From NCBI GenBank assembly GCA_021786825.1, contig JAJYMS010000216.1:1-41462 (forward strand): DNA of 41,462 bases, in the 5' to 3' direction. The translations under genes were made by a program, and so were the position numbers. The DNA is from Bacillota bacterium (GTDB lineage: Bacteria; Bacillota; Sulfobacillia; JAMDAP01; JAJYMS01). Shown piece by piece: positions 1,861-41,462 of the stretch. The notes beneath the pieces are model-generated. The model saw only the letters and a list, made by a program, of their open reading frames with translations, was not told the DNA's origin and made no database searches. Position 1 is the stretch's first letter, and each line of letters opens with the position of its first letter.

Positions 1861-2664
1861 CTGGACACCGTCAAGATTTCCGCGCGCGGAATCTCCAAGG
1901 TCTTCGGCGCCCACGGGAAGGCCCAGCCTGTTGCCGCCATCCGGTCGGTGGACATGGAGGTGCGCGCCGGCGAGTTCGCCGTCCTCCTGGGTCCCAGCGG
2001 CTGTGGCAAGTCGACTTTTCTTTACATGGTGGCTGGCTTTGAACAGCCCTCCACCGGGCAGATCTTGCTAGCAGGCAAACCCATCACCGGGCCGGGGGCC
2101 GACCGCGGAATCGTCTTTCAGGAGTACGTGCTCTTCCCCTGGCGGACGGTGCTTGGCAACGTACGTTTCGGCCTGGACCTGAAAGGCGTCCCCCGGCAGG
2201 AAGCCGACCGGAAGGCGATGGAGTACATCTCGCTGGTGGGGTTGAAGGGGTTTGAAAACACCTACACCCATACTCTGTCGGGTGGGATGAAGCAGCGAGT
2301 GGCGATCGCGCGGGCCCTGGCCTATGAGCCTGAGGTGCTGCTTATGGACGAGCCCTTTGGCGCCCTGGATGCACAGACCCGCAACTACCTGATCGCCGAC
2401 CTCTCCCGGATCCACCAGGAGACCCGCAAGACAGTTCTTTTCGTCACCCACAGCGTGCAGGAGGCCGTCCTGCTGGCGGACCGGATTCATGTCTTCACTG
2501 CTCGCCCGGGCAACATCAAGGAGACGCTGGAGGTGGACCTGCCTCGCCCGCGCGCCGCTGCCAGCCCGGAAACCGCCCGCCTCGAACAGCGCATCCTGGC
2601 TCTGCTCAAGACCGAGGTGGAACAGAGCATGAGGGAGGAACTCGGTATTGTTCAGCAACCGTAA
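1861..2664 (+). CDS. ABC transporter ATP-binding protein, SsuB/TauB type, apparent CTG start
   Basis: ATPase that powers the importer. With a CTG start at 1861 it is 267 residues, with Walker A GPSGCGKS (about 44-51), Q-loop in VFQEYVLFPW, signature LSGGMKQR, Walker B LLMDEPFGALD and the H-loop histidine in FVTHSVQEA. The first conventional in-frame start is GTG 1948, which would remove the N-terminal beta strands (VKISARGISKVFG) that the family has before Walker A. The frame is open up to the permease stop, where only ATT 1855 and CTG 1861 are near-cognate starts. CTG 1861 sits 7 bases after GGGGG. I infer the CTG start; a start at 1948 or a sequencing error nearby are the alternatives. Confidence 0.85.
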   Translation: MDTVKISARGISKVFGAHGKAQPVAAIRSVDMEVRAGEFAVLLGPSGCGKSTFLYMVAGFEQPSTGQILLAGKPITGPGADRGIVFQEYVLFPWRTVLGNVRFGLDLKGVPRQEADRKAMEYISLVGLKGFENTYTHTLSGGMKQRVAIARALAYEPEVLLMDEPFGALDAQTRNYLIADLSRIHQETRKTVLFVTHSVQEAVLLADRIHVFTARPGNIKETLEVDLPRPRAAASPETARLEQRILALLKTEVEQSMREELGIVQQP

Positions 2665-4843
2665 CACGGATATCTGGTATGGCAAGATCCGTCTCGAGCC
2701 GGAAGGCGACATCGTCGCGGGTACCTACGGCACCTGGCGCCTGATCTATACGGTGGGCCGTTACGGCATCGACAGCGGCGGCCGCATGAAGCTGGCCTTC
2801 CGCCTGTCGAGCGACTGGGGGACGCCCCAGTTTAGCGATCCGGAGGCAGACAACTACGTGACCGTCACCACCGACGGCGATGCCCGATTGGCGGTTTCCT
2901 GGGAGCCCAAAGGCTACCTGCGTCCCTTCTTCAAGACGATCACCCTGGGAGTTTACGACGGCAGTCTGAAAGAGGGCGACCAGGTGGTCATCACCCTGGG
3001 CGACACCATTGGTGGCAGCCGGGGCACCCGGGCACAGAGCTTCATCGAGTCCCATTTCCAGTTCAAGTTTGTGGTGGAGTCATTCGAATCCGGGATTTTC
3101 GTAGCCTTACCCTCGTCCCCGGTGCTGGCGATTGTCAGCGCCGAGCCCCACCGCCTGCTGGTATCCGCTCCGTCCCTCTTGACGGTGGGGGAACCCTTGG
3201 CTGCAACCGTCAAGGCAGAGGATCGCTTCGGCAATCTGGCAGGCGGATACACGGGGCGGGTGGCCTTCCTCCCCATGACCGGCCTTGTCGCTGCGGATGC
3301 CCACACCTACCAGCCAGACGACGGCGGTGTTCACCGCTTCGAGGGGCTGGTTTTCAAAACTCCCGGCACTTACCGCCTGCAAGTTCGGGATGACGCCGGA
3401 TGTACCGCAGTCAGCAATCCGGTCCGGGTGACCTCGGAACCGCCACGTCATCGTATTTACTGGGCCGATATCCACGGGCAGACGGGCGAGACGGTCGGTG
3501 CCGGCAGCGTGGACGAGTATTTTCGGTTTGCGCGGGATGTTGCGGCGCTGGATGTGACGGGGCATCAGGGCAACGATTTTCAGATCACCCGCAAGCTCTG
3601 GGCTGAAATCGAACACAGAACCAAGGAATACCATGAACCGGGGCGGTTCGTCACCTTCCTCGGGTGGGAGTGGTCGGGCAACAACCCCGCCGGCGGAGAC
3701 CATAACGTCTACTACCCACTTTCGGACACGGGGATGATCCACCGGTCCAGTCACTGGCAGATCCCGGACAAGTCGGATGAGGAGAACGACCGCTACCCGA
3801 TTACGGAACTCTACAAGACGCTCAGGAGCAAGAGCGAGCCGGTCCTGGTGATCCCGCACGTGGGAGGGCGCCACTGCAACCTGGATTTCCACGACCCGGA
3901 CCTCGAACCGGCGCTGGAGATTACCTCGGTCCACGGCCGCTTCGAGTGGCTGCTGGAGGACGCCCTTCGCCGGGGTTACAAGGTCGGCGTGGTCGGCAAC
4001 AGCGACGACCACACCTGCCGGCCCGGGGCCGCCTACCCCACCGATCACTCCTTCGGCGTGCGGGGCGGACTGACCGGAATCCAGGCGGCGGCGCTGACCC
4101 GGGAGGAGATCTTCGCGGCCTACAAGGCCCGGAGGACCTACGCAACCACCGGGGCTCGCATTTTCCTTTCCGTTACGGCGAACGGCCATCCGATGGGGGC
4201 TGAATTCACCGCGAGTCGGTCACCAGCCCTTCAAGTGGAGGTGTCCGGGACCGGGCCGATCGATCGGGTGGAGATCAAGCGGGGGTCCGACGTAGTCTAT
4301 TCGTATCCCCCGGTCCGGAGCGCGGATTTGGATCCGCAGCAACTCCGCATCCTCTGGGGCGGGGCGCGCATCCCGGGGCGGGGGCGGCACACCCGGTGGG
4401 ATGGGGAGATTTCGCTGAGCCGGGGGCGAATCACCTCGGCCGAGACGGTGGCTTTTGACGCCCCGACCCAGGGGCTTACGGAAGTGACCGAGCAGAAGGT
4501 GGCCTGGATTTCCACCACTTCGGGCGACGTCGACGGCCTGGTGCTTCGCCTGGACGCGCCGCCGGATGCCGCGTTGACCTTTACCTCGCCGGTTACATCA
4601 TTCTCGGTCCGGATCTCAGACCTGGCCGGAGGGCTCGTCCGGCACGAAGTGGGGGGGCTGGACCAGCATGTGGAGGTCTCGCTCATGCCCCGCCAGGCCC
4701 CGCCTGCGGACGTCTCCTTCACCTTCACGGACCCGGAGATCCGCCCCGGACTGAACGCCTACTACGTCCGGGTGATGCAAACAGACGGCGAGATGGCCTG
4801 GTCTAGCCCGATCTATGTGCGTTATGAGGGACCGGGCCGCTGA
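2648..4843 (+). CDS. DUF3604/CehA-McbA-like PHP-type metallohydrolase
   Basis: Predicted metal-dependent hydrolase of 731 residues. The first 250 or so residues look beta-rich. From about residue 270 comes a PHP-like domain with metal-ligand candidates in DIHGQT (274-279), GHQGNDF, HNVYYP, IPHVGGRHCNLDFHDP and NSDDH (451-455), the spacing seen in DUF3604 proteins. A beta-rich C-terminal part follows. There is no signal peptide, so it is probably cytoplasmic. The TTG start overlaps the ATPase gene by 17 bases after AGGGAGGA, which implies translational coupling with the importer. Related CehA/McbA enzymes hydrolyse carbamate or ester bonds in xenobiotics; the reaction here is unknown and the importer link is inference from position. 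Confidence 0.75.
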   Translation: MFSNRNTDIWYGKIRLEPEGDIVAGTYGTWRLIYTVGRYGIDSGGRMKLAFRLSSDWGTPQFSDPEADNYVTVTTDGDARLAVSWEPKGYLRPFFKTITLGVYDGSLKEGDQVVITLGDTIGGSRGTRAQSFIESHFQFKFVVESFESGIFVALPSSPVLAIVSAEPHRLLVSAPSLLTVGEPLAATVKAEDRFGNLAGGYTGRVAFLPMTGLVAADAHTYQPDDGGVHRFEGLVFKTPGTYRLQVRDDAGCTAVSNPVRVTSEPPRHRIYWADIHGQTGETVGAGSVDEYFRFARDVAALDVTGHQGNDFQITRKLWAEIEHRTKEYHEPGRFVTFLGWEWSGNNPAGGDHNVYYPLSDTGMIHRSSHWQIPDKSDEENDRYPITELYKTLRSKSEPVLVIPHVGGRHCNLDFHDPDLEPALEITSVHGRFEWLLEDALRRGYKVGVVGNSDDHTCRPGAAYPTDHSFGVRGGLTGIQAAALTREEIFAAYKARRTYATTGARIFLSVTANGHPMGAEFTASRSPALQVEVSGTGPIDRVEIKRGSDVVYSYPPVRSADLDPQQLRILWGGARIPGRGRHTRWDGEISLSRGRITSAETVAFDAPTQGLTEVTEQKVAWISTTSGDVDGLVLRLDAPPDAALTFTSPVTSFSVRISDLAGGLVRHEVGGLDQHVEVSLMPRQAPPADVSFTFTDPEIRPGLNAYYVRVMQTDGEMAWSSPIYVRYEGPGR

Positions 4844-4963: not shown

Positions 4964-6541
4964 ATGCTGGCCAGGGTACGAAGCGTTGCCGTTTACGGGA
5001 TGCAGGTACAGCCTGTCGCGGTGGAAGTCGACATCAGTAACGGCCTCCCGGTTTTCGAGATCGTCGGTCTTCCTGACAGTGCCGTGAGGGAGTCCAGGGA
5101 GCGGGTGCGCTCGGCCATCCGCAACTCCGGCTTCGATTTTCCCTACAAGCGCATCACCGTCAACCTGGCGCCGGCAGACATCCGCAAGGAGGGACCGGTT
5201 TTCGACCTGCCCATCGCCATTGGCGTGCTGGCCGCCGCCGGGCAGGTGCGCGAGGCGGGGCGCCACATCCTGGCCGGGGAACTCTCCCTGGATGGCTCCT
5301 TGCGGCCGACGGCCGGAATCCTGCCGATGGCGGTGGCCGCCTGGCGGGTGAGGCAACCGGGCCCGGGGACCTCGGACCAGGTCGAATTCATCGTCCCGCG
5401 GGACAACGGGGCGGAGGCGGCGGCGGTCGGGGGGCTGCGGGTGCGCGCGGCTGCAAACCTCCGGGCGGTGGTGGACTGGCTCAACGGCGGGGAGGGCCTG
5501 CCGCTGGCGGTCGAGGCGGCCGTTGGACCCTCCCCCGCCGGCTCGATTTTCGACTTCCGGGACGTCCGGGGTCAGGAGGGGGCCAAGCGGGCCCTCGAGG
5601 TGGCGGCGGCGGGTGGCCATAACGTGCTGCTGATCGGCCCGCCGGGGTCGGGCAAGACGATGATGGCCCGCCGGATGCCCGGGATCCTGCCCGAGCTCAC
5701 GGAGGAGGAGGCGCTGGAGACCAGCCAGATCCACAGCGTGGCCGGGCTGTTAGCGCCGGGGAGCGGCCTGTTGCGGCGGCGTCCCTTCCGGGCTCCCCAC
5801 CACACCGCCTCGGCCGCGGCCCTGATCGGCGGCGGCCAGCCTCTTCGCCCGGGCGAGGTCAGCCTGGCGCACCACGGGATCCTCTTCCTGGACGAGTTGC
5901 CGGAGTTTCACCGCGACGCCCTGGAGGCCCTGCGCCAGCCGCTGGAGGACGGCGAGGTCGCCGTGATTCGCGGCGGCAGGGGCTATCGTTTCCCCGCCCG
6001 CTTCGTTCTGCTGGCCGGGCAGAACCCCTGCCCGTGCGGTTTCTGGGGATCCGCCGACGGCCGCTGCACCTGCACCCTGCCACAGGTGGAGCGGTACCGC
6101 GGCCGCGTTTCGGGCCCCCTGTGGGACCGGATCGACCTGCACGTCGAGGTCCGCCAGCCGGCCCTCGCGGACCTGGAAGGGTCGGCGACAAGGGACGTGG
6201 CAGGGGCGGCAACGGCGGCGGGGGCGGATTCGGCCGGGATGCTGGCGCGGGTCACCGGGGCGCGGGAGGCGCAGCGCCGGCGGTTCAGTAGGCGGGGCCT
6301 CTTCTGCAACGCGCAGATGGGCAAGGCGGAACTCGGCGAGTTCTGCGAGTTGGACCGGCAGGCGCGGTCGCTGCTGGGCGCGGCCTTCGAACGCCTCGGC
6401 TTCACGGCCCGGGCCTACGACCGGGTGCTCAAGGTCGCCCGCACCATCGCCGACCTCGAGGAAGAGGCGGACATCGGCCCGCGGCACGTGGCGGAGGCGG
6501 TCCAGTATCGGAGCCTGGACCGCCGCCTGGACACGATTTGA
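4964..6541 (+). CDS. comM: YifB/ComM family Mg-chelatase-like AAA+ ATPase
   Basis: Cytoplasmic AAA+ protein of 525 residues. In Haemophilus and Vibrio, ComM is a hexameric helicase that promotes branch migration during natural transformation; many non-competent bacteria carry it too. The N-terminal ChlI-like domain is recognisable from VDISNGLPVFEIVGLPDSA and ITVNLAPADIRKEGPVFDLP. Walker A is GPPGSGKT (225-232), Walker B ILFLDELPEF, and the cysteine-containing CPCGFWG and CTCT pair is the usual YifB feature. The C-terminal part (RAYDRVLKVARTIADLE) is the helical lid. ATG 4964 gives the canonical family N terminus MLARVRSVAVYGM. dprA, another transformation-linked gene, lies about 6 kb downstream. 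Confidence 0.93.
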   Translation: MLARVRSVAVYGMQVQPVAVEVDISNGLPVFEIVGLPDSAVRESRERVRSAIRNSGFDFPYKRITVNLAPADIRKEGPVFDLPIAIGVLAAAGQVREAGRHILAGELSLDGSLRPTAGILPMAVAAWRVRQPGPGTSDQVEFIVPRDNGAEAAAVGGLRVRAAANLRAVVDWLNGGEGLPLAVEAAVGPSPAGSIFDFRDVRGQEGAKRALEVAAAGGHNVLLIGPPGSGKTMMARRMPGILPELTEEEALETSQIHSVAGLLAPGSGLLRRRPFRAPHHTASAAALIGGGQPLRPGEVSLAHHGILFLDELPEFHRDALEALRQPLEDGEVAVIRGGRGYRFPARFVLLAGQNPCPCGFWGSADGRCTCTLPQVERYRGRVSGPLWDRIDLHVEVRQPALADLEGSATRDVAGAATAAGADSAGMLARVTGAREAQRRRFSRRGLFCNAQMGKAELGEFCELDRQARSLLGAAFERLGFTARAYDRVLKVARTIADLEEEADIGPRHVAEAVQYRSLDRRLDTI

Positions 6542-6580
6542 CATTTTTTTTGCGAGCGTGGAAAGGGACTGGGAAAGTTT

Positions 6581-6587
6581 TGTCGAA
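6581..6587 (+). promoter_or_regulatory. Possible Spo0A box upstream of the PilZN-ParA fusion gene
   Basis: TTTTGTCGAA contains the core TGTCGAA of the Bacillus Spo0A binding site. It sits 37 bases before the GTG start at 6625, between the comM stop and the next ribosome binding site. The same core lies at nearly the same distance upstream of the HD-GYP gene. This is a motif match only; no binding has been shown. Confidence 0.35.
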
Positions 6588-6624
6588 CCCTCCCAAAGGA
6601 GAAAATCACTGGGAGGCGACGCGC

Positions 6625-7761
6625 GTGGCGGATGAAGCGGAGGTCTTTGCCAACCGGTTAGTCTGGGTTCACAGCCGGACCGGGAAGCAGGGCACGATCT
6701 TTCAGAGCCGCGTCCTGGGCGCGGACGATCAGACCCTCGTCATTGCCCAGCCCTATCGCCAGGGGCGCATCGTCGTCTACAACGCTGGGCAGACCGTCAT
6801 CCTGCGCATGCAGGACCCCGAGGCGGAGGAGGGCCCGGGGCCCGAATACCCGGTCCAGGTCCTGGAGCGCCGGTTGCGGCCGTTGCCGTCGCTGGTGCTG
6901 ACCCTCACGCCTGACTTGGCGCGCGCCCTGCGCGGGCAGTCGGAACGGTACGCGAAGGTCGTGGCGATCACCAGCGGCAAGGGCGGGGTCGGGAAGACGA
7001 CGCTGACGGTGAACCTGGGGATCGCCCTGGCTCAGGCGGGGGTCAAGACGGCGATCATCGACGCCGACCTGGGACTGGCGAACGTCGATGTGATGATGAA
7101 AATCGACGCCCCTTACAACCTCAACCACCTGATCAACGGCGAACGCACCCTGCGGGAGATCGTCCTGGAAGGGCCCCATGGGCTGCGGGTGGTCCCCGGG
7201 GGGTCGGGGCTGTCGGAGTTGGCCAACCTGAATGAGTGGCAGTTCGGCCGCCTGGTGGCGAGCCTGACCGAGTTGGAGCGGGACGCCGAGATGATCCTGA
7301 TCGATACGGGGGCGGGGCTGTCCCGCAACGTGACCAACTTCTTCCTGGCGGCGGACGAGGTGGTGGTGGTCACCAATCCCGAACCCCCGGCCACCCTTGA
7401 CGCTTACGGAGTCATGAAGGTGGTGGGGGAGCAGGGGCGCCGCCACGGCGTCAAGCTGGTCGTAAACCGCGCCCAGAACCCGAACGAGGCGTCCCTGGTG
7501 GCGGAGAAACTGGCGGAGACGGCCAAGCGCTTCCTGGGAATCGAGGTCACCTACTTGGGCCCCGTCCTGGAAGACCAGATGGTCGTCAGTGCGGTCAAGC
7601 GGCAGAAGCCGTTGTTGGTGCACTACAACGCGTCGGTGGCGGGGCAGGGGATCAAGCGATTGGCGCGCCAACTCCAACCCAGCCCGGAGGCGGAGCTGCA
7701 AGCGGGAGGCGAGCGGCTGGGCTTCTTCCAACGCCTGCGCCAGCTCTTCGCCAACCCCTGA
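6625..7761 (+). CDS. MinD/FlhG-type ParA ATPase with N-terminal YcgR-N/PilZN-like domain
   Basis: A two-part protein of 378 residues. Residues about 8-95 look like the YcgR N-terminal (PilZN) fold: VWVHSRTGKQGTIFQSRV, then a pattern close to ALVIAQPYRQGRIVVYNAGQ. No PilZ RxxxR/DxSxxG motif follows. From residue about 112 it is a deviant-Walker MinD/FlhG ATPase: SGKGGVGKTT (117-126), IIDADLGLANVDV, LIDTGAGLS, then VVTNPEPPATLDAYGVMK. The tail LGFFQRLRQLF could be a membrane-binding amphipathic helix as in MinD. The FlhF-activating DQAxxLR motif of FlhG is absent. GTG 6625 is chosen because GGGAGG precedes it by 8 bases; an upstream TTG at 6538 would overlap the comM stop. A role in flagellar or pole placement is inferred from family. 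Confidence 0.8.
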   Translation: MADEAEVFANRLVWVHSRTGKQGTIFQSRVLGADDQTLVIAQPYRQGRIVVYNAGQTVILRMQDPEAEEGPGPEYPVQVLERRLRPLPSLVLTLTPDLARALRGQSERYAKVVAITSGKGGVGKTTLTVNLGIALAQAGVKTAIIDADLGLANVDVMMKIDAPYNLNHLINGERTLREIVLEGPHGLRVVPGGSGLSELANLNEWQFGRLVASLTELERDAEMILIDTGAGLSRNVTNFFLAADEVVVVTNPEPPATLDAYGVMKVVGEQGRRHGVKLVVNRAQNPNEASLVAEKLAETAKRFLGIEVTYLGPVLEDQMVVSAVKRQKPLLVHYNASVAGQGIKRLARQLQPSPEAELQAGGERLGFFQRLRQLFANP

Positions 7762-7993: not shown

Positions 7994-8779
7994 GTGAACG
8001 TGGTGGTTTGCATCAAGCAGGTTCCCGAAACCGGCGCCATCAAGCTGACCGGACCGGTCCAAACCCTCAAGCGCGAAGGGGTCAACATGATCGTCAACCC
8101 GTTTGACCAGTACGCGATCGAGGAGGCCATCCGGATCAAGGAGCGCGATGGCGGGACCATCACCGCGGTGTGCATGGGGGAGGCGAAGGGCAAGGAGGCG
8201 GTCCGGGAGGCCATCGCTATGGGCGCGGACGCCGGGATGCTTCTGGCCGACCCCGCTTTCACCGATTCGGACACCCTGGGAACGGCGCGCGTGCTGGCCC
8301 AGGGCCTGAAGCGGCTGGAAGGAGCCACGCTGATCATCCTGGGGCGCCAGGCGGTGGACGGGGCCTCCGGACAAGTCGGCCCGCAGCTCGCCGAAGAACT
8401 GGGAGTCCCCCACCTCACCAACGTCCGCAAGATCCTGGAACTCCGGCCGGACTACCTGAAGGTGGAGAGGCTGCTGGAGGTGGGGGTCGAAGTGGCCGAG
8501 ACCTCGCTGCCGGCGCTGATCACCGTGGTGAAGGAAATCAACGAACCGCGGCTCCCGTCCCTGAAAGGGATTATGCGGGCCAAGAAGACCGAGATCACCA
8601 CCTACGGCGCCGCCGACCTGGGCGTCGACGCCTCCCAAGTGGGAGCGGCGGGCGCGATGATGCAGGTGGTCGAATACGCTCCCCCACCGGCGCGCGGCAA
8701 GGGCGAACTGATCCAGGGTGAGGTTCAGGAGCAGGTCCACACCCTGGTGGCCAAGCTACGGGGGACCAAGCTGATTTGA
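7994..8779 (+). CDS. etfB: Electron transfer flavoprotein beta subunit (EtfB/FixA)
   Basis: Small subunit of the heterodimeric flavoprotein that carries electrons between acyl-CoA or other dehydrogenases and an acceptor; the beta subunit holds AMP, or a second FAD in bifurcating types. It is 261 residues with the family N terminus MNVVVCIKQVPETG, then VNPFDQYAIEEAIRIKE and LGRQAVDGASGQVGPQLAEELG, which belongs to the nucleotide-binding region. GTG 7994 follows AAAGGAAGG by 12 bases. etfA starts 13 bases after the stop. No partner dehydrogenase is nearby, so the electron donor cannot be inferred. Confidence 0.94.
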   Translation: MNVVVCIKQVPETGAIKLTGPVQTLKREGVNMIVNPFDQYAIEEAIRIKERDGGTITAVCMGEAKGKEAVREAIAMGADAGMLLADPAFTDSDTLGTARVLAQGLKRLEGATLIILGRQAVDGASGQVGPQLAEELGVPHLTNVRKILELRPDYLKVERLLEVGVEVAETSLPALITVVKEINEPRLPSLKGIMRAKKTEITTYGAADLGVDASQVGAAGAMMQVVEYAPPPARGKGELIQGEVQEQVHTLVAKLRGTKLI

Positions 8780-8792
8780 GGGGGGTAGGGCG

Positions 8793-9785
8793 ATGAGCGA
8801 GAGCAAGGGCGTCTGGATCTGGGCGGAGCAGCGGGACGGCGCGCTGGCCTCCGTCGTCTACGAGTTGCTGGGCGGGGCTCGCAAGCTGGCCGACAGCTTG
8901 GGCCAGCCGCTGGGCGCGGTGCTCCTCGGCGACGGCGTGGAGGGCCTAGCCCGGAACCTCTTCGAATACGGCGCGGACCAGGTCTACCTGGTGGAGAGCC
9001 CCGATTTGAAACAACTCCGGGACGAGGCCTACGTTCAGGCGCTGGCCGCGCTGGCCGGCAAGTACCAGCCCGACGTGTTGCTGCTGGGGGGCACCGTGGC
9101 CGGCCGTTCAGTGGCCGCACGCCTGGCGGCCCGACTGAAGGTCGGCCTGGCCGGGGACTGCACGGGGGTCGAGACCGGCCCTGACGGCCGGCTGAAACTC
9201 ACCCGGCCGGCTTTCGGCGGCAATATCATCGCCACCGTGCTGGCCGCCGGCCGCCCGCAGATGGCGACGGTGCGCCTGAAGACCTTTGCCAAGGGAACCC
9301 GGCAGGAGGGCCGCGGCGGGCAGTTGATCCGGGAGGCGGCGGCGATCGACAGCACCTTGCTGCGCACCCGGGTGGTCGACTTTGTGGCGGAGCTCGCCGG
9401 CAAGGTGAAACTCGAGGAGGCTGACATTATCGTCTCGGGCGGCCGCGGGCTGGGCGATCCCTCCAAGTTCAAGCTGCTGGAGGAACTCTGCCAGGTTCTC
9501 GGCGCCGCCCTGGGGGCGTCCCGCGCGGCGGTGGACGCCGGATGGATCCCCTACTCCCACCAGGTGGGCCAGACCGGCAGGACGGTCAGCCCCAAGATCT
9601 ACATCGCGGTCGGCATCTCCGGGGCGATTCAGCACCTGGCCGGAATGCAGTCTTCGGACATCATCGTGGCTATCAACAAGAATCCGGACGCCCCCATCTT
9701 CCAGGTGGCCACTTTCGGGATCGTGGGCGATCTGAACCAGGTGGTGCCGGCCCTCACGACCGAATTCAAGCGTGCCCTCGCCTAG
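8793..9785 (+). CDS. etfA: Electron transfer flavoprotein alpha subunit (EtfA/FixB)
   Basis: Large subunit of the flavoprotein, 330 residues. The C-terminal FAD-binding domain is clear: SGGRGLGDPSKFKLLEELC, SRAAVDAGWIPYSHQVGQTG, then YIAVGISGAIQHLAGM and INKNPDAPIFQVATFGIVGD. The N-terminal part contains LLGGTVAGRSVAARLAARL, matching the alpha-subunit alpha/beta fold. There is no ferredoxin-like N-terminal extension of the kind found in some bifurcating EtfA proteins. ATG 8793 has GGGGGGTAGGG upstream. The gene is followed by a terminator at 9839, so etfBA is a compact two-gene unit. Confidence 0.95.
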   Translation: MSESKGVWIWAEQRDGALASVVYELLGGARKLADSLGQPLGAVLLGDGVEGLARNLFEYGADQVYLVESPDLKQLRDEAYVQALAALAGKYQPDVLLLGGTVAGRSVAARLAARLKVGLAGDCTGVETGPDGRLKLTRPAFGGNIIATVLAAGRPQMATVRLKTFAKGTRQEGRGGQLIREAAAIDSTLLRTRVVDFVAELAGKVKLEEADIIVSGGRGLGDPSKFKLLEELCQVLGAALGASRAAVDAGWIPYSHQVGQTGRTVSPKIYIAVGISGAIQHLAGMQSSDIIVAINKNPDAPIFQVATFGIVGDLNQVVPALTTEFKRALA

Positions 9786-9838
9786 GCCGAAGACCACCGC
9801 CGGTGGAGCCGGCGCCGCCGCGAGCGCCGCCGCCGGCC

Positions 9839-9875
9839 AAGACCCACCTCCCCCGGGGAGACGGGTCTTTTGTTT
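9839..9875 (+). terminator. Intrinsic terminator after etfA
   Basis: AAGACCC and GGGTCTT form the outer stem, with CTCC and GGAG inside it. TTTTGTTT follows directly. It lies 54 bases after the etfA stop and ends the etfBA unit before the HD-GYP gene. Confidence 0.75.
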
Positions 9876-9884
9876 CATCAAAAG

Positions 9885-9907
9885 GAAATTTGTGGCCTTT
9901 TGTCGAA
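9885..9907 (+). promoter_or_regulatory. Possible regulatory region before the HD-GYP gene: shared 11-mer plus Spo0A-box core
   Basis: GAAATTTGTGG (9885-9895) is identical to 20820-20830 upstream of flgB. Five bases later comes TTTTGTCGAAAC with the Spo0A core TGTCGAA at 9901-9907, 35 bases before the TTG start at 9943. A weak promoter reading, TTTGTG, 16 bases, TACAAC, would put the box between the -35 and -10 elements, a repressing position. All of this is motif matching. Confidence 0.35.
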
Positions 9908-9942
9908 ACTTACAACATGATTCCGGTACGGGGGGATATGGG

Positions 9943-11079
9943 TTGGCTCGGAAGGTGCTTCAGCTTGACCAGGTCGCACCTGGAATGGTGCTGGCCCGTC
10001 CGGTCCTGGCGCCGAGCGGCCGCACTCTGCTGCAGGCGGGCCTGGCGCTGACGGACCTGCACCTGCACAAACTGCGCCAATTGGAGGTTCCCATGGTTAC
10101 GGTGCTGGCGGACGACCCTCCCGACTCCCAGGTCGTCCGCTGGCTGGCCTCGCTGTCCAACCGGGTGCCCTACGTCATCGACCAGCAACTGCGGGGACAG
10201 GCCATGGGGTTCATCGACGGCGTCCTCCGACAGGCCCGCTTGCGGGGCGACGTCGACGTCGGCGCTTCCCGCCAGGTGGTGGACAAGCTGCTGGAAGAGT
10301 TGCTGGCGAAGGAAACCGCGGTCAGCACCCTGGTCGACTACAACCAGGCCGACACCTACCTCTCGGCGCACTCGGTGAGCGTCAGCGTCATCGCCCTGCA
10401 CCTGGGGCTGAAGAAGGGGTCGTCCCGGATCGAACTGCGGGAGTTGGGGCTGGCGGGCCTGCTGCACGACATCGGGAAGGCTCGCGTCCCCGCCGACTTG
10501 CTAAGCAAGCCCGGACCGCTCACGGATGAGGAGTGGGTGCTGATGCGCCGGCACCCCGAGCTGGGGAGCCAGATGCTGGGGTGCCGGCCGGGGGTGGGGG
10601 AGCAACTCACCGCCGCCCTGGTCCAGCACCACGAACGCTATGACGGCCTGGGTTACCCCCACGGGCTGGCCGGGGATCAGATTCACCCGATGGCCGAGTT
10701 GATCGCCCTGGCCGACGTGTTCGACGCCCTTTCGTCGGAGCGGTTCTACCGGGCCAAGTGCGAACCCTACGAAGTCGCGGAGACCATGATCGCCCTCTCG
10801 GGCGAGGCTTTCCGTCCGTCGCTGCTGCGGTTCTTTCTCGCCAACGTGCCGGCCTACCCCCCGGGCACGGTGGTCCGCTTCAACACCGGGGAGGTGGCGA
10901 TGGTCAAGCTCGCCCGCCCCGAGATGCCGACCCGCCCCTTGTGCGAGATGGTCTTTGACGCCGACGGCGTGCGGCTGGACCGGCCCCGGCTGGTCGATCT
11001 GGCCGAGCAGCTGGCCATCTTCCCCGCTCAGGTCCTCGGCGCCGAACCCATTGGACCCATCGCGGGCCACCGGGGTTGA
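9943..11079 (+). CDS. HD-GYP domain protein, predicted c-di-GMP phosphodiesterase
   Basis: Cytoplasmic protein of 378 residues. The N-terminal region (about 1-120) has LDQVAPGMVLARPV, common at the start of this clostridial family. The HD-GYP domain carries HD at 175-176 in LLHDIGKARVP, LSKPGPLTDEEW, then HHERYDGLGYP (229-239) with an intact GYP motif, and ADVFDAL. All the residues expected for metal binding and c-di-GMP hydrolysis appear present. There is no receiver or membrane segment. TTG 9943 is preferred: GGGGGAT precedes it, and extending upstream in frame would run through the etfA terminator. Being near motility genes, it may lower c-di-GMP and favour swimming; that is inference. Confidence 0.88.
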   Translation: MARKVLQLDQVAPGMVLARPVLAPSGRTLLQAGLALTDLHLHKLRQLEVPMVTVLADDPPDSQVVRWLASLSNRVPYVIDQQLRGQAMGFIDGVLRQARLRGDVDVGASRQVVDKLLEELLAKETAVSTLVDYNQADTYLSAHSVSVSVIALHLGLKKGSSRIELRELGLAGLLHDIGKARVPADLLSKPGPLTDEEWVLMRRHPELGSQMLGCRPGVGEQLTAALVQHHERYDGLGYPHGLAGDQIHPMAELIALADVFDALSSERFYRAKCEPYEVAETMIALSGEAFRPSLLRFFLANVPAYPPGTVVRFNTGEVAMVKLARPEMPTRPLCEMVFDADGVRLDRPRLVDLAEQLAIFPAQVLGAEPIGPIAGHRG

Positions 11080-32594: not shown

Positions 32595-33626
32595 TTGGCC
32601 GAGATCCTGACCCAGCAGGAAATAGATGACCTGATTGCGGCCATGGGGGCTGGGGAACCGGTCCGGGAGCAGGCGCCGGCGGTTGAATCGGTCAGAGGGC
32701 CGTCCCCGCAGCGTGAAGGTCAGCGGGAACGACGGGTGAGGGTCTATGACTTCCGCCGACCGGACAAGTTCTCCAAGGAGCAACTGCGCACCATCTCCAT
32801 GATTCACGACAACTTCACCCGCCTGCTGGCGACTTTCTTCTCCGCCCACTTCCGGACGGTGGTCCAGCTCTCCCTGTCCTCGGTCGACCAGATGACCTAC
32901 GGCGAGTTCACCCGGGCCCTTTCGGATCCGACCGTCCTGTCCATTTTCACTTTGAAGCCGCTGAAGGGCAACGGCATCCTGGACATCACGCCCGCAATCG
33001 CCTTTCCGATGATCGACCGGCTGTTCGGCGGGCCGGGGCAGGCGATGGAAAAGACCCGCCCGCTGACGGAGATCGAACAGACCGTGATGGATCGCCTTTC
33101 CCGGGGCTTCTTGAGCAGCCTGGCGGAGGCCTGGCGGAATGTGATCGAGCTGGAGCCGAGGCTGGAGGCGATGGAGTCCAACCCGATGTTCGCCCAGATC
33201 GCGGCCCCCAACGAGATCGTGGTGGCGGTGGTCATCGACCTGCGAATGGGGGAGCATCGGGGAAACATCAACCTCTGCCTGCCGTACCTCCTCATCGAGC
33301 CTTTGCTGCCCAAGCTCTCGGCGCACAGTTGGTTCGCCAGTTCCCAGCGGGAGGCCACCCCCGAGCTGCTGTCCAACCTGAACCACCGACTGGCGGAGAC
33401 AGGGGTTCCCTTGATCGCCGTCCTGGGCCAGGCGGCGGTGAGCGTGCGAGATTTGCTGGGTCTGGAGGCGGGCGACGTGGTGCGCCTAGGCACCCGGGTC
33501 GGCGGGGAGATAGACGTTACGGTGGGCAGCCGGCCGAAGTTCACGGGCCATCCCGGGACCTTAAACGGTCGCCTGGCCGTACGGATCAAGGCCCTGGCAG
33601 GGTCCGAGGAGGATGAGGATGAGTAG
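32595..33626 (+). CDS. fliM: Flagellar motor switch protein FliM
   Basis: C-ring protein that receives CheY-P; 343 residues. The N-terminal CheY-binding segment is LTQQEIDDLIAAM. The CheC-like middle domain starts about residue 50 (RRPDKFSKEQLRTISMIHDNFTRLL) with GGPG in LFGGPGQAMEK, and the SpoA C-terminal domain covers about 265-335 (LLGLEAGDVVRLGTRVGGEIDV). TTG 32595 has GGAGG upstream. Its end overlaps fliY by 14 bases. Confidence 0.96.
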   Translation: MAEILTQQEIDDLIAAMGAGEPVREQAPAVESVRGPSPQREGQRERRVRVYDFRRPDKFSKEQLRTISMIHDNFTRLLATFFSAHFRTVVQLSLSSVDQMTYGEFTRALSDPTVLSIFTLKPLKGNGILDITPAIAFPMIDRLFGGPGQAMEKTRPLTEIEQTVMDRLSRGFLSSLAEAWRNVIELEPRLEAMESNPMFAQIAAPNEIVVAVVIDLRMGEHRGNINLCLPYLLIEPLLPKLSAHSWFASSQREATPELLSNLNHRLAETGVPLIAVLGQAAVSVRDLLGLEAGDVVRLGTRVGGEIDVTVGSRPKFTGHPGTLNGRLAVRIKALAGSEEDEDE

Positions 33627-34752
33627 TGGTAACCTCTCCCAGGAAGAGATCACCTCCCTGTTGCAGAGCATGAACCTGGACGACCAGGTCCCGGCGGGGC
33701 CGGGCGGGGCGCGACCCGGCCAGGAACAGGAGCGGGCGTTGGAGGAGCGGCTGGCCGGGGCAGTGGACGCCGGAGCGGCGGCGCTGACGGTCCTGCTCAA
33801 CCTTCCCCTGAGCCTCTCGGCCCCGGAAGCCCGGCTGATGACGGCCGGGGAGTACGTTCCGGGGCTGGGACAGAACATGGTAATGGTCAAGGTGGAGTTC
33901 GTCCAGGGCGTCGGTGGGGCCCTGTTCTGGCTGTTGAGCGAGGCCGGCGCCACGGCCGTCGCCGACGTGCTCCTGGGTGGGGACGTCCCCGGGGACGGGT
34001 TCCTGGGGCCCCGGCAGAGCGCCTACGGCGAGGCCATCAGCCAACTCTTCGGGGCCTGGGCGACCAGGTTCTCGGAAGTGCTGGGAACCGGTGTCAGCTT
34101 TGCGCCGCCCGAGGTGACGGTCGGGCCGGAGGTGCTGTCCTCCCTGGGCAACGATTTCCCCGCCGAGGCGGAAATCGCGGTGGTCAGCACCAACCTCGTG
34201 CTGGAGGGCAAGCTGCAGGAGCAGGCCGTCATCATCATGGAGAAGGGGCTGGTCGACTCCCTGGCGCCCCCGGCCGCGGCCACGGCCGAAGCCGCCGCCG
34301 CCCCAGCCTTGCTGGAGGCGGAGCGGCCCGCCCTGGCGGCAAAGGTCGCGATCCCCTCCGCCGTGCAGGAGGCCATGGACGGTCTGGCGCCGCCGGGGAT
34401 TGCGCGCGGCCGCTCGCCGGCGGCGCCCGGGAGTTCGGTGACGGTACAGGCCGCCAACTTCGGAGACCTGGGCAAGGGGGCCCTGCCGCCGGAGGCGCAA
34501 AACATCGATCTCTTGATGGATGTCACCCTGCAACTCACCGTCGAGTTGGGGCGCGCCCGGCGGAAGATCCGCGACGTCCTGGCGATGGGGCCCGGCTCGG
34601 TGGTGGAACTGGACCGCCTCGCCGGCGAGGCGGTGGACGTGCTGGTTAACGGCAAGCTGATCGCCAAAGGCGAGGTGGTGGTCATCGACGAGAACTTCGG
34701 CGTCAGGATCACCGACATTGTAACCCCCGCCGAGAGGGTGAGAGGGCTATAG
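33613..34752 (+). CDS. fliY: Flagellar motor switch protein FliY (CheC-like domain plus FliN)
   Basis: C-ring protein of 379 residues (377 from ATG 33619). It has its own N-terminal CheY-binding-like motif (LSQEEITSLLQSM), a CheC-like middle and a C-terminal FliN/SpoA domain from about 295 (DVTLQLTVELGRARRKIRDVL, VLVNGKLIAKGEVVVIDENFGVRI). In B. subtilis FliY is a CheY-P phosphatase. Here the motif S136-x3-E140-x2 ends in S143 instead of the catalytic Asn, and the first site is not recognisable, so activity may be lost. The linker at 225-280 is Ala/Pro-rich. Confidence 0.92.
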   Translation: MRMSSGNLSQEEITSLLQSMNLDDQVPAGPGGARPGQEQERALEERLAGAVDAGAAALTVLLNLPLSLSAPEARLMTAGEYVPGLGQNMVMVKVEFVQGVGGALFWLLSEAGATAVADVLLGGDVPGDGFLGPRQSAYGEAISQLFGAWATRFSEVLGTGVSFAPPEVTVGPEVLSSLGNDFPAEAEIAVVSTNLVLEGKLQEQAVIIMEKGLVDSLAPPAAATAEAAAAPALLEAERPALAAKVAIPSAVQEAMDGLAPPGIARGRSPAAPGSSVTVQAANFGDLGKGALPPEAQNIDLLMDVTLQLTVELGRARRKIRDVLAMGPGSVVELDRLAGEAVDVLVNGKLIAKGEVVVIDENFGVRITDIVTPAERVRGL

Positions 34753-38583: not shown

Positions 38584-40656
38584 ATGGCGGTGAGAGGGCT
38601 GGCGGCCTGGCTCGACAACTGGTTGAAGTACGCGGACGTAGTTTTCGCCGTGGTTGTGATCGTCATCATCAGCATGATGATCATTCCCTTGCCAAGCGCC
38701 CTGCTCAGTTTCCTCCTGGTGGTCAACCTGATCACTTCCCTGGTGATCCTGCTGACCACCCTTTATGCCGGCGAGCCGCTCCAGTTCTCCATCTTCCCGT
38801 CCCTGTTGCTGATTACCACCCTTTTCCGCCTGGCGCTCAACGTTTCCTCCACCCGTCTGATCCTGCTGACCGGTGAGCCGGGCGACGTCATCCGGGGCTT
38901 CGGCGATTTCGTGGTGGGAGGAAGCCCGGTCGTCGGGTTCATCGTCTTCGTGATCCTGGTAGTGATCCAGTTCATCGTGATCACCCGCGGCGCCGAACGC
39001 GTGGCGGAAGTCGCCGCCCGTTTCACCCTGGACGCCATGCCGGGTAAGCAGATGGCCATCGACGCCGATCTGAACGCCGGGCTGATCACCGAGGTCGAGG
39101 CGAGGGCCCGCCGGCGTTCCATCCAGCGGGAGGCCGACTTCTACGGGGCGATGGACGGCGCGTCCAAGTTCGTCAAGGGGGACGCCATCGCCGGGATCAT
39201 CATCGTGGTCGTCAACCTGATCGGCGGCTTCATCATGGGCTGGATGCGCGGGCTCGACCCCGCCCAGTCGCTGCAGACCTACTCGCTCCTTACCGTCGGC
39301 GAGGGTCTGGTGACCCAGATTCCCGCCCTGCTGATTTCCACCGCCACGGGTATCGTGGTGACCCGCGCGGCCTCCGACACGGGACTGGGGCGCGAAATGA
39401 TCGCCCAGGTGCTGGCGCAGCCGCGGGTGCTGCTGATCGCGGGAGGCGTGTCCGTGGTGGTCGCCCTGGTGCCCGGCATGCCGCACATTCCCTTCTTCGT
39501 GGTCGGGATACTCTTCGCCGCTCTGGGCTACCTGACGCAACTGGGGGCGAAGGCCAAGGCGGAGGCCCAGGCTCAGGCCGCCGCCGCCACCGCCGAGGCG
39601 GGGGACCGCAAGCCGGAGAACGTGATGTCCCTGCTGCCTATCGATCCCATGGAGATCGAGCTCGGCTACGCCCTGTTGCCGCTGGCCGACCCGGCCCAGG
39701 GCGGCGACCTGATGGAGCGGGTGGTCGCCATCCGGCGACAGGTGGCCTTGGAGATGGGCTTGGTGTTACCCTACATCCGGGTGCGTGACAATATTCAACT
39801 AAAACCGACACAATATGTCGTTAAGCTTAGAGGAGTTCAGGTCGCGGAGGGAGAAATATACCCGGACCATTATTTGGCTATGAATCCAGGGACCGTCACC
39901 GACCAGGTGCCGGGAACCGACACGCAGGAACCGGCCTTCGGCCTGCCCGCCCGGTGGGTCAGCAAGGCGCAGAAGGAGAGGGCGGAACTGGCCGGTTACA
40001 CGGTGGTCGATCCGCCGGCCGTGGTCGCCACTCACCTCACCGAGATCATCCGGACCCACGCCCACGACCTCTTGGGCAGGCAGGAGGTGCAAGCCCTGAT
40101 GGACGCCGCCAGGACGAGTCACCCCGCGGTCGTCGAGGAGTTGTTACCCAACCTGCTCACCCTCGGCGAGGTCCAGAAGGTCCTGCAGAACCTGCTGCGG
40201 GAAGGGATCTCCATCCGGGATCTGGTGTCCATCCTGGAGAGCCTGGCCGACCACGCCCGGAGCACCCGTGACATCGATTTGTTGACGGAGTTCTGCCGGC
40301 AGGCGCTGTCCCGTGCCATCGCGCAGCACTACGGGCTCCACGGCGGACAGGTGAAGGTAATCACCCTGCATCCGGACCTCGAGCACCGCTTGGCGGCGGG
40401 GCTGGAGCGGCGCGAGACCGGCGCCTACGTGAACCTCGAGCCGGAGCTGCTGCAGAAGGTCCTCGCTTCGCTGACGGCGCAGGCCAACCGGGCCGCGGCC
40501 CTGGGGCACACCCCGATCGTGCTGACCTCGCCGGGCGTGCGGTTTCATTTCAAGCGTTTGACCGAGCGGACCATGCCCCGCCTGATAGTGCTTTCGTACA
40601 ACGAGCTACTACCCGACGTTGAAGTAGAGGCGATAGGGATGGTGAGTGTGGCATGA
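38584..40656 (+). CDS. flhA: Flagellar export gate protein FlhA
   Basis: Large export-gate protein, 690 residues. About eight membrane helices lie in the first 320 residues, with the conserved cytoplasmic loop [21 protein letters not shown] and [22 protein letters not shown]. The cytoplasmic substrate- and chaperone-docking domain follows, with [15 protein letters not shown] and [16 protein letters not shown] 38584 is the start, and the end overlaps flhF as ATGA. A stretch at 39791-39840 (residues about 403-419) is only 36% G+C (18 of 50), unlike the rest of the gene, without any break in the family pattern. Confidence 0.97.
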
Positions 40657-41462
40657 AGGTGAAGAAATACCTGGCGGCGAGCCTCCCCGAAGCGATGGCC
40701 AAGGTCAGGCAGGAACTTGGGCGCGACGCCATCATTTTGCACACCCAGAAGATCCGGGTGGGGGGGATGATGGGCGTTTTCGGCCGTACCATGGTGGAGG
40801 TGACGGCGGCGACCGACGACTCGGCCGGCCCCGTGGCCGTCCACGCCCCTTCCGTGGACGGCGGGCCGGGAGCAGTGCTCCCCGCGGCCCCGCCGATGGG
40901 CGCGCCCCTGCCGATTCAGGGGTCGTCCCAGGCGCTGGTGCTGGCCCCGCCCAGCGAGTTCGTTACCCCGCCGCCCCGGCCGGTCGCGGAACCGCTGGCG
41001 GGAACTGCCGCGACCGCCGGCACGAGCAGCGTCAGCCTGAGCGAGTTGCAGGCGGAACTGGACTCCGTCAAGACCTTGATGAACCAGGTCATCCGTCGCC
41101 TGGAGGTGCCCGACCTGGTGGCCGGCTACCCGGAGGTCCTGCGGCAGCTCTACCAGGGCCTGACCGCCTCCGGGGTGGAACAGGAACTGGCCGCCGACGT
41201 GATCAGCCAGGCGGCGGCGGAGCACCAGGGTGAGGACCTGAGCGTGGAGTCAGCCCGGCAGATCGTGCGCGAGTTGGTCGCCCGCCGGCTGGGGCCGGGG
41301 AGGGGCGTGGAAGTGACCAAAGGAGCCCGCCGGGTGATCGCCCTGGTGGGGCCGACCGGGGTCGGCAAGACGACCACCCTGGCGAAACTGGCGGCCCATT
41401 TCGCGCTGGCCCAGAAGCGGTCGGTGGCCCTCGTAACCGCGGACACCTACCGGATCGCGGCG
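40653..41462 (+). CDS. flhF: Flagellar biosynthesis GTPase FlhF (3' truncated by window edge)
   Basis: SRP-type GTPase that places flagella at the correct cell site. The first 270 residues are visible. The start [23 protein letters not shown] and the [11 protein letters not shown] segment are the FlhF B domain, followed by a Pro/Ala-rich linker at about 65-125, the helical N domain, and the G1 motif GPTGVGKT (233-240) with ADTYRIAA at the window edge. ATG 40653 overlaps the flhA stop by 4 bases. The rest of the G domain, and probably a standard flhG, lie beyond the window. Confidence 0.95.

Follow-up and report, generated by a model that had tools for sequence, protein, structure and literature searches.

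A PilZN-FlhG fusion in Bacillota, apparently an undescribed branch of the FlhG family

The site and number of flagella are set by FlhF and FlhG, and YcgR-type proteins slow the flagellar motor at high c-di-GMP. FlhG stimulates FlhF through its DQAxxLR helix, which carries the catalytic Gln. In YcgR and MotI, PilZN is a protein-docking module, and it normally packs against PilZ within the same chain. DQAxxLR is considered a hallmark of FlhG (reviewed in PMC12826062), which binds the N-terminus of FliM or FliY (PMC12826062, PMC12327844), and in Geobacillus FlhG residues K177, R207 and F215 were found to be crucial for FliY binding (PMC12327844, one passage of which prints Arg277). In E. coli, PilZN binds FliG, according to PMC11800159.

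A gene combining features of both systems lies at positions 6625–7761 (+) of the window, by which we mean the whole 41,462-nt stretch of Bacillota DNA analysed here. In one intact frame it encodes a 378-aa protein formed from an N-terminal PilZN domain, a complete FlhG/FleN-type MinD ATPase and an amphipathic tail. The closest solved relatives of the ATPase belong to the FlhG/FleN/YlxH family (Geobacillus FlhG, 4RZ2; Pseudomonas FleN, 5J1J), with which it shares a deviant Walker A motif, an amphipathic C-terminal helix and C-ring-binding residues; unlike canonical FlhG, it lacks DQAxxLR, has PilZN instead, does not adjoin flhF and coexists with a canonical FlhG. An N-terminal PilZN is also found in the YcgR/MotI (YpfA) flagellar brake or clutch (5VX6, 5Y6F), but in the fusion the ATPase stands in place of the PilZ domain. 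MinD belongs to the same ATPase superfamily and likewise ends in an amphipathic helix, whereas the fusion falls below the MinD cut-off (TIGR01968; 129.4 vs 212.9 bits) and keeps FlhG-type residues at positions 177, 207 and 215. BcsQ (TIGR03371), a MinD-type ATPase from a cellulose synthase context, is of the same superfamily, and its cut-off is also missed (77 vs 158 bits); no cellulose genes were detected among the window proteins scanned.

A literature search turned up no account of a PilZN-FlhG protein, although subscription papers were mostly outside its reach and an earlier mention is possible. Neither PilZ nor the word “paralog” occurs in the FlhF/FlhG review PMC12826062, and no ATPase fusion was seen in the available part of PMC11800159, a survey of PilZN architectures. 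The fusion is apparently an old, widespread and undescribed branch of the FlhG family. An FlhG paralogue with a YcgR docking domain in place of the FlhF-activating helix suggests that the two systems are physically joined, and would give the Bacillota a second FlhG that does not act through FlhF. It also carries a warning for annotation, in that some Bacillota genes labelled “MinD/ParA” or “FlhG” are not canonical FlhG.

Architecture of the fusion protein

The longest form of the open reading frame runs from a TTG at 6538 to 7761 (407 aa), but the GTG at 6625 is the better start: a Shine-Dalgarno-like GGGAGG, read from the sequence, is placed 8 nt upstream (6611–6616, +), and the homologues share this start position. 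A search for promoter and terminator motifs around the gene found none. Although the assembly is in many pieces and contains some contamination, the probability that an annotation or assembly artefact has given an ordinary FlhG a chance N-terminal extension is negligible: the architecture is repeated in ~38 genomes, as one open frame with a conserved domain order, and this recurrence rules out such an origin.

The ATPase domain (residues ~110–349; 6952–7671, +) was delimited from Pfam (AAA_31/CbiA/ParA), PDB matches and a tree. Its catalytic motifs are intact, and comprise the deviant Walker A SGKGGVGKTT (residues 117–126; 6973–7002, +), the Lys of which is present in 38/38 fusions; DADLGLANVD (residues 146–155; 7060–7089, +), with its Asp in the same 38/38; and the Walker B/switch II motif DTGAG (residues 227–231; 7303–7317, +), in which D227 and G231 are invariant across the homologue alignment. 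FleN (5j1j, 1.8e-81) and FlhG (4rz2, 4e-68) are the nearest PDB relatives, as against 4e-48 for MinD (1hyq), and the ATPase is, as judged by sequence, of the FlhG/FleN type and not a generic ParA/MinD.

Alignment with Geobacillus FlhG places K177, R207 and F215 at K265, K295 and F303 of the window protein, K265 (7417–7419, +) being the equivalent of the FliY contact K177, and K295 and F303 (within 7507–7533, +) those of the C-ring contacts R207 and F215 (PMC12327844). The K177 position is Lys in 37/38 fusions and 50/50 canonical FlhG proteins and Gly in MinD; only two other columns are, like it, conserved across fusions and canonical FlhG alike but not shared with MinD. At position 207, 30/38 fusions have a basic residue and MinD mostly Asp; at position 215, 35/38 have an aromatic residue and MinD a gap. 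The FliM/FliY-binding residues of FlhG are mostly kept in the fusions. Candidate ligands are encoded in the window itself, where fliM and fliY (32595–34752, +) carry N-terminal EID-type peptides (ILTQQEIDDLIAAM; LSQEEITSLLQSM). At the C-terminus, FFQRLRQLFAN (residues 367–377; 7723–7755, +) forms a putative membrane-targeting amphipathic helix, with a hydrophobic moment of 0.64 (p=0.02 vs shuffles), and aligns with the C-terminal helix of Geobacillus FlhG (4rz2). This tail is kept in most homologues; a sub-clade (e.g. G017, G037 and G177) has no clear membrane helix.

The N-terminal domain (residues ~5–105; 6637–6939, +) was identified through Pfam PF12945 (PilZNR), which matches residues 21–93 at 27.4–27.5 bits, above the gathering score of 23, and 10/11 fusion homologues (best 1.4e-10). 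A profile made from fusion N-domains only retrieves YcgR proteins that carry both RxxxR and DxSxxG, many encoded directly 3' of canonical flhG. Compared by hhalign with an alignment of 21 Bacillota YcgRs, the fusion N-domains matched at 99.1% (E 1.1e-18), over YcgR residues 8–104, the match stopping at the YcgR RxxxR motif. The fusion-only profile did not retrieve YcgR from the PDB, so the bridge to solved structures was made via the Bacillota YcgR alignment, which matches B. subtilis YpfA/MotI (5VX6, 7.6e-29) and E. coli YcgR (5Y6F, 2.4e-10). AlphaFold2 models rested on very shallow alignments and reached a pLDDT of 52 for the full protein (three sequences) and 55 for the N-domain (two sequences), both being beta-rich and too weak to define a fold; Foldseek with the low-confidence N-domain model returned nothing at E<=0.001, a PilZ structure appearing at rank 25. 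On the profile evidence, the N-terminal domain is assigned as PilZN. The PilZ half is absent by both Pfam and motif searches, and since the protein has no PilZ domain, RxxxR or DxSxxG, no c-di-GMP site is predicted in it.

The initial annotation had described a YcgR-N/PilZN-like domain in residues 1–105, a full MinD/FlhG ATPase and an amphipathic-looking C-terminal tail. All three descriptions are upheld, with the ATPase now placed more specifically in the FlhG/FleN type.

A second FlhG in the same genome

The fusion gene sits between comM/yifB (4964–6541) and etfBA (7994–9785), ~34 kb from flhF and not directly after it. Further downstream, the run dprA-topA-trmFO-xerC-hslV-hslU-codY-flgB-flgC-fliE-fliF continues into a large flagellar operon, and flhF (40653–41462, +) is open at its 3' side at the window end. 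Contig C68 (L042) of the same assembly starts inside flhF and continues with flhG-pilZ-fliA-fapA, its canonical FlhG (MADQAQRLR; MADQAQRLRRLADDLKANIAEKSA...) carrying both DQAxxLR and a membrane-targeting sequence. DQAxxLR is absent from the fusion, and the two proteins share 46% identity across the ATPase. As a separate canonical flhG follows flhF on C68, the fusion is, by this comparison, a second FlhG and not a diverged sole copy, in agreement with the earlier suggestions that the motif was missing, that a standard flhG would follow flhF outside the window, and that this was a distinct member. The assembly comprises 274 contigs with 7.7% contamination; over ~40 bases, the window end (41423–41462) differs from the end of C68 at two positions, and the two are suggested to be adjacent contigs from close strains binned together.

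It is moderately probable that this second protein (FlhG2) is an anciently duplicated FlhG that cycles on the membrane and grips FliM/FliY, having exchanged the control of FlhF for a PilZN dock. ATP would drive its dimerisation and membrane binding, and the ATPase would still capture FliM/FliY by their N-terminal EID peptide, or bind a different ligand at this site, such as GpsB. Being without DQAxxLR, FlhG2 would be unable to stimulate FlhF. We infer by analogy with YcgR and MotI that PilZN docks a partner, and it may tether FlhG2 to FliG or the stator at the motor, or to a c-di-GMP-loaded PilZ domain, the involvement of c-di-GMP being the weaker proposition. The net effect would be that C-ring components are diverted or held, and flagellar number, placement or activity adjusted independently of FlhF.

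A different relation to FlhF, in which the fusion substitutes for canonical FlhG and PilZN replaces the DQAxxLR helix in FlhF stimulation, is improbable. No FlhG besides the fusion was found in G002 and G409, both of which keep flhF, and a DQA-PilZN-ATPase hybrid (described below) demonstrates that helix and domain can share one protein; against this, a canonical DQA-type FlhG coexists with the fusion in most carriers, including the window genome, and PilZN is unlike a catalytic-Gln helix.

For FlhG2 as a duplicated FlhG with a new dock, a candidate PilZ partner would be the 145-aa lone PilZ protein whose gene immediately follows canonical flhG (L042 4887–5324, −); it has RxxxR and DISAGG. Across the genome, PilZNR matches the window gene alone and PilZ only the protein on C68, and in relatives a full PilZN-PilZ YcgR occupies the slot of the lone PilZ. 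These observations are consistent with a specific form of the preferred reading, in which YcgR has been split, and c-di-GMP-bound PilZ docks onto PilZN and recruits or arrests FlhG2, diverting C-ring parts from control by FlhF and canonical FlhG. If true, FlhG2 would directly couple c-di-GMP to flagellar placement. A PilZ protein is present in 35/36 other carriers, but most of these have a complete YcgR, which makes the arrangement lineage-specific at best; G187, a fusion carrier, has no detectable PilZ, so PilZ docking is not universal. Given also the usual packing of the two domains in cis and the fragmentation and contamination of the assembly, the split form is rather unlikely.

A further point on the side of c-di-GMP is an HD-domain (HD_5) protein of HD-GYP type (9823–11079, +), identified by Pfam ~2 kb downstream of the fusion. 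A gene of this type accompanies the fusion in only three distant carriers (the window; L123, 6905–8070; L043, 9685–10884); in G364 it immediately precedes the fusion, and in G002 it lies upstream at a distance of 3.7 kb. It is a possible c-di-GMP link.

Distribution, descent and genomic setting

Within the class, 9/154 genomes, each from a different family, carry the fusion, as do 29/399 genomes sampled from the phylum, window genome included; a DQA-type flhG is also present in most carriers. In a tree of 94 ATPase domains, for which the bootstrap had yet to converge completely and support at the deepest forks is weak, 35 fusions and a PilZN-less protein from G231 are split by one branch (91/92) from canonical FlhG and MinD. 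The fusions neighbour canonical FlhG, a long branch of its own sets MinD apart, and several fusion sub-groups mirror the canonical FlhG sub-groups of the same genomes. We read this as essentially one clade, probably derived from an old duplication and inherited with many losses. The G231 protein (L184 7694–8569, −) is a third FlhG-type paralogue, with neither PilZN nor DQA. Three closely related genomes (G055, G023 and G042; L035, L036 and L037) have an FlhG without a recognisable DQAxxLR helix, and G018 has two fusions, its flhA locus containing no flhF and no canonical flhG.

The fusions of G195, G503 and G419 group with canonical FlhG, apart from the main clade, and these in-operon cases are independent of it. 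In G195 (L135 6797–9532) the order is flhF-flhG(DQA)-fusion-ycgR within a flagellar/chemotaxis operon. In G503 (L129 7624–8790) and G419 (L130 8231–9433) a single FlhG directly after flhF unites the DQAxxLR helix, PilZN and ATPase in one chain, with ycgR next. Such hybrids, together with the tandem loci, render the idea of a junction directly testable.

The flagellar gene flhA is present in 9/9 carriers of the class and 27/28 of the phylum, compared with 325/399 of the phylum sample (Fisher p 0.017). This co-occurrence is only modestly informative, given how common flagella are in the phylum sample (81%) and the non-independence of related genomes. The one carrier without flhA, G177, was considered as a non-flagellated carrier and this was ruled out by its FliG.

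In most relatives the fusion lies outside flagellar operons, amid variable neighbours (parAB-bactofilin, polysaccharide and metabolic genes), so a non-flagellar cargo is possible. The protein would then be a positioning ATPase for the cell pole, origin, bactofilin or envelope/polysaccharide, with PilZN as cargo adaptor and its FlhG ancestry historical, and the retained FlhG residues may serve another ligand. In G494, G473 and G453 the fusion directly follows parA-parB and is itself followed by an M23-like gene and bactofilin, in G362 and G409 it also follows parAB, and in two Syntrophomonadaceae MAGs (L009, L010) it is beside a Wzz-like chain-length gene. In one lineage (L133, L140, L144, L146, L150) it comes after rsmG-parB-like-parA-parB near the origin, and three of these loci continue with an M23-like gene and a bactofilin. 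Most neighbourhoods nevertheless look incidental, flagellar genes are found in every carrier checked, the C-ring contact residues are retained, and in three genomes the fusion is inside a flagellar operon; we regard a non-flagellar cargo as a tentative, minority reading.

The balance favours a flagellar role for the fusion, because it co-occurs with flhA, is found inside flagellar operons in three genomes and retains the C-ring-binding residues. The earlier proposal, that the fusion could link flagellar placement or braking to a positioning ATPase, has therefore fared unevenly: its flagellar part is supported by these same observations, whereas the brake and c-di-GMP part is weakened by the absent PilZ half and the location of the gene, mostly outside flagellar operons.

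A scan of viral sequences returned no match reaching residues before 76, and a scan of named genomes found few relatives of the fusion. Elsewhere in the window, a 731-aa DUF3604 protein (2648–4843) is encoded after an NMT1-type ABC transporter. Of the two Syntrophomonadaceae MAGs, L010 has a BY-kinase gene further on, and L009 has a sortase-like gene close to the fusion.
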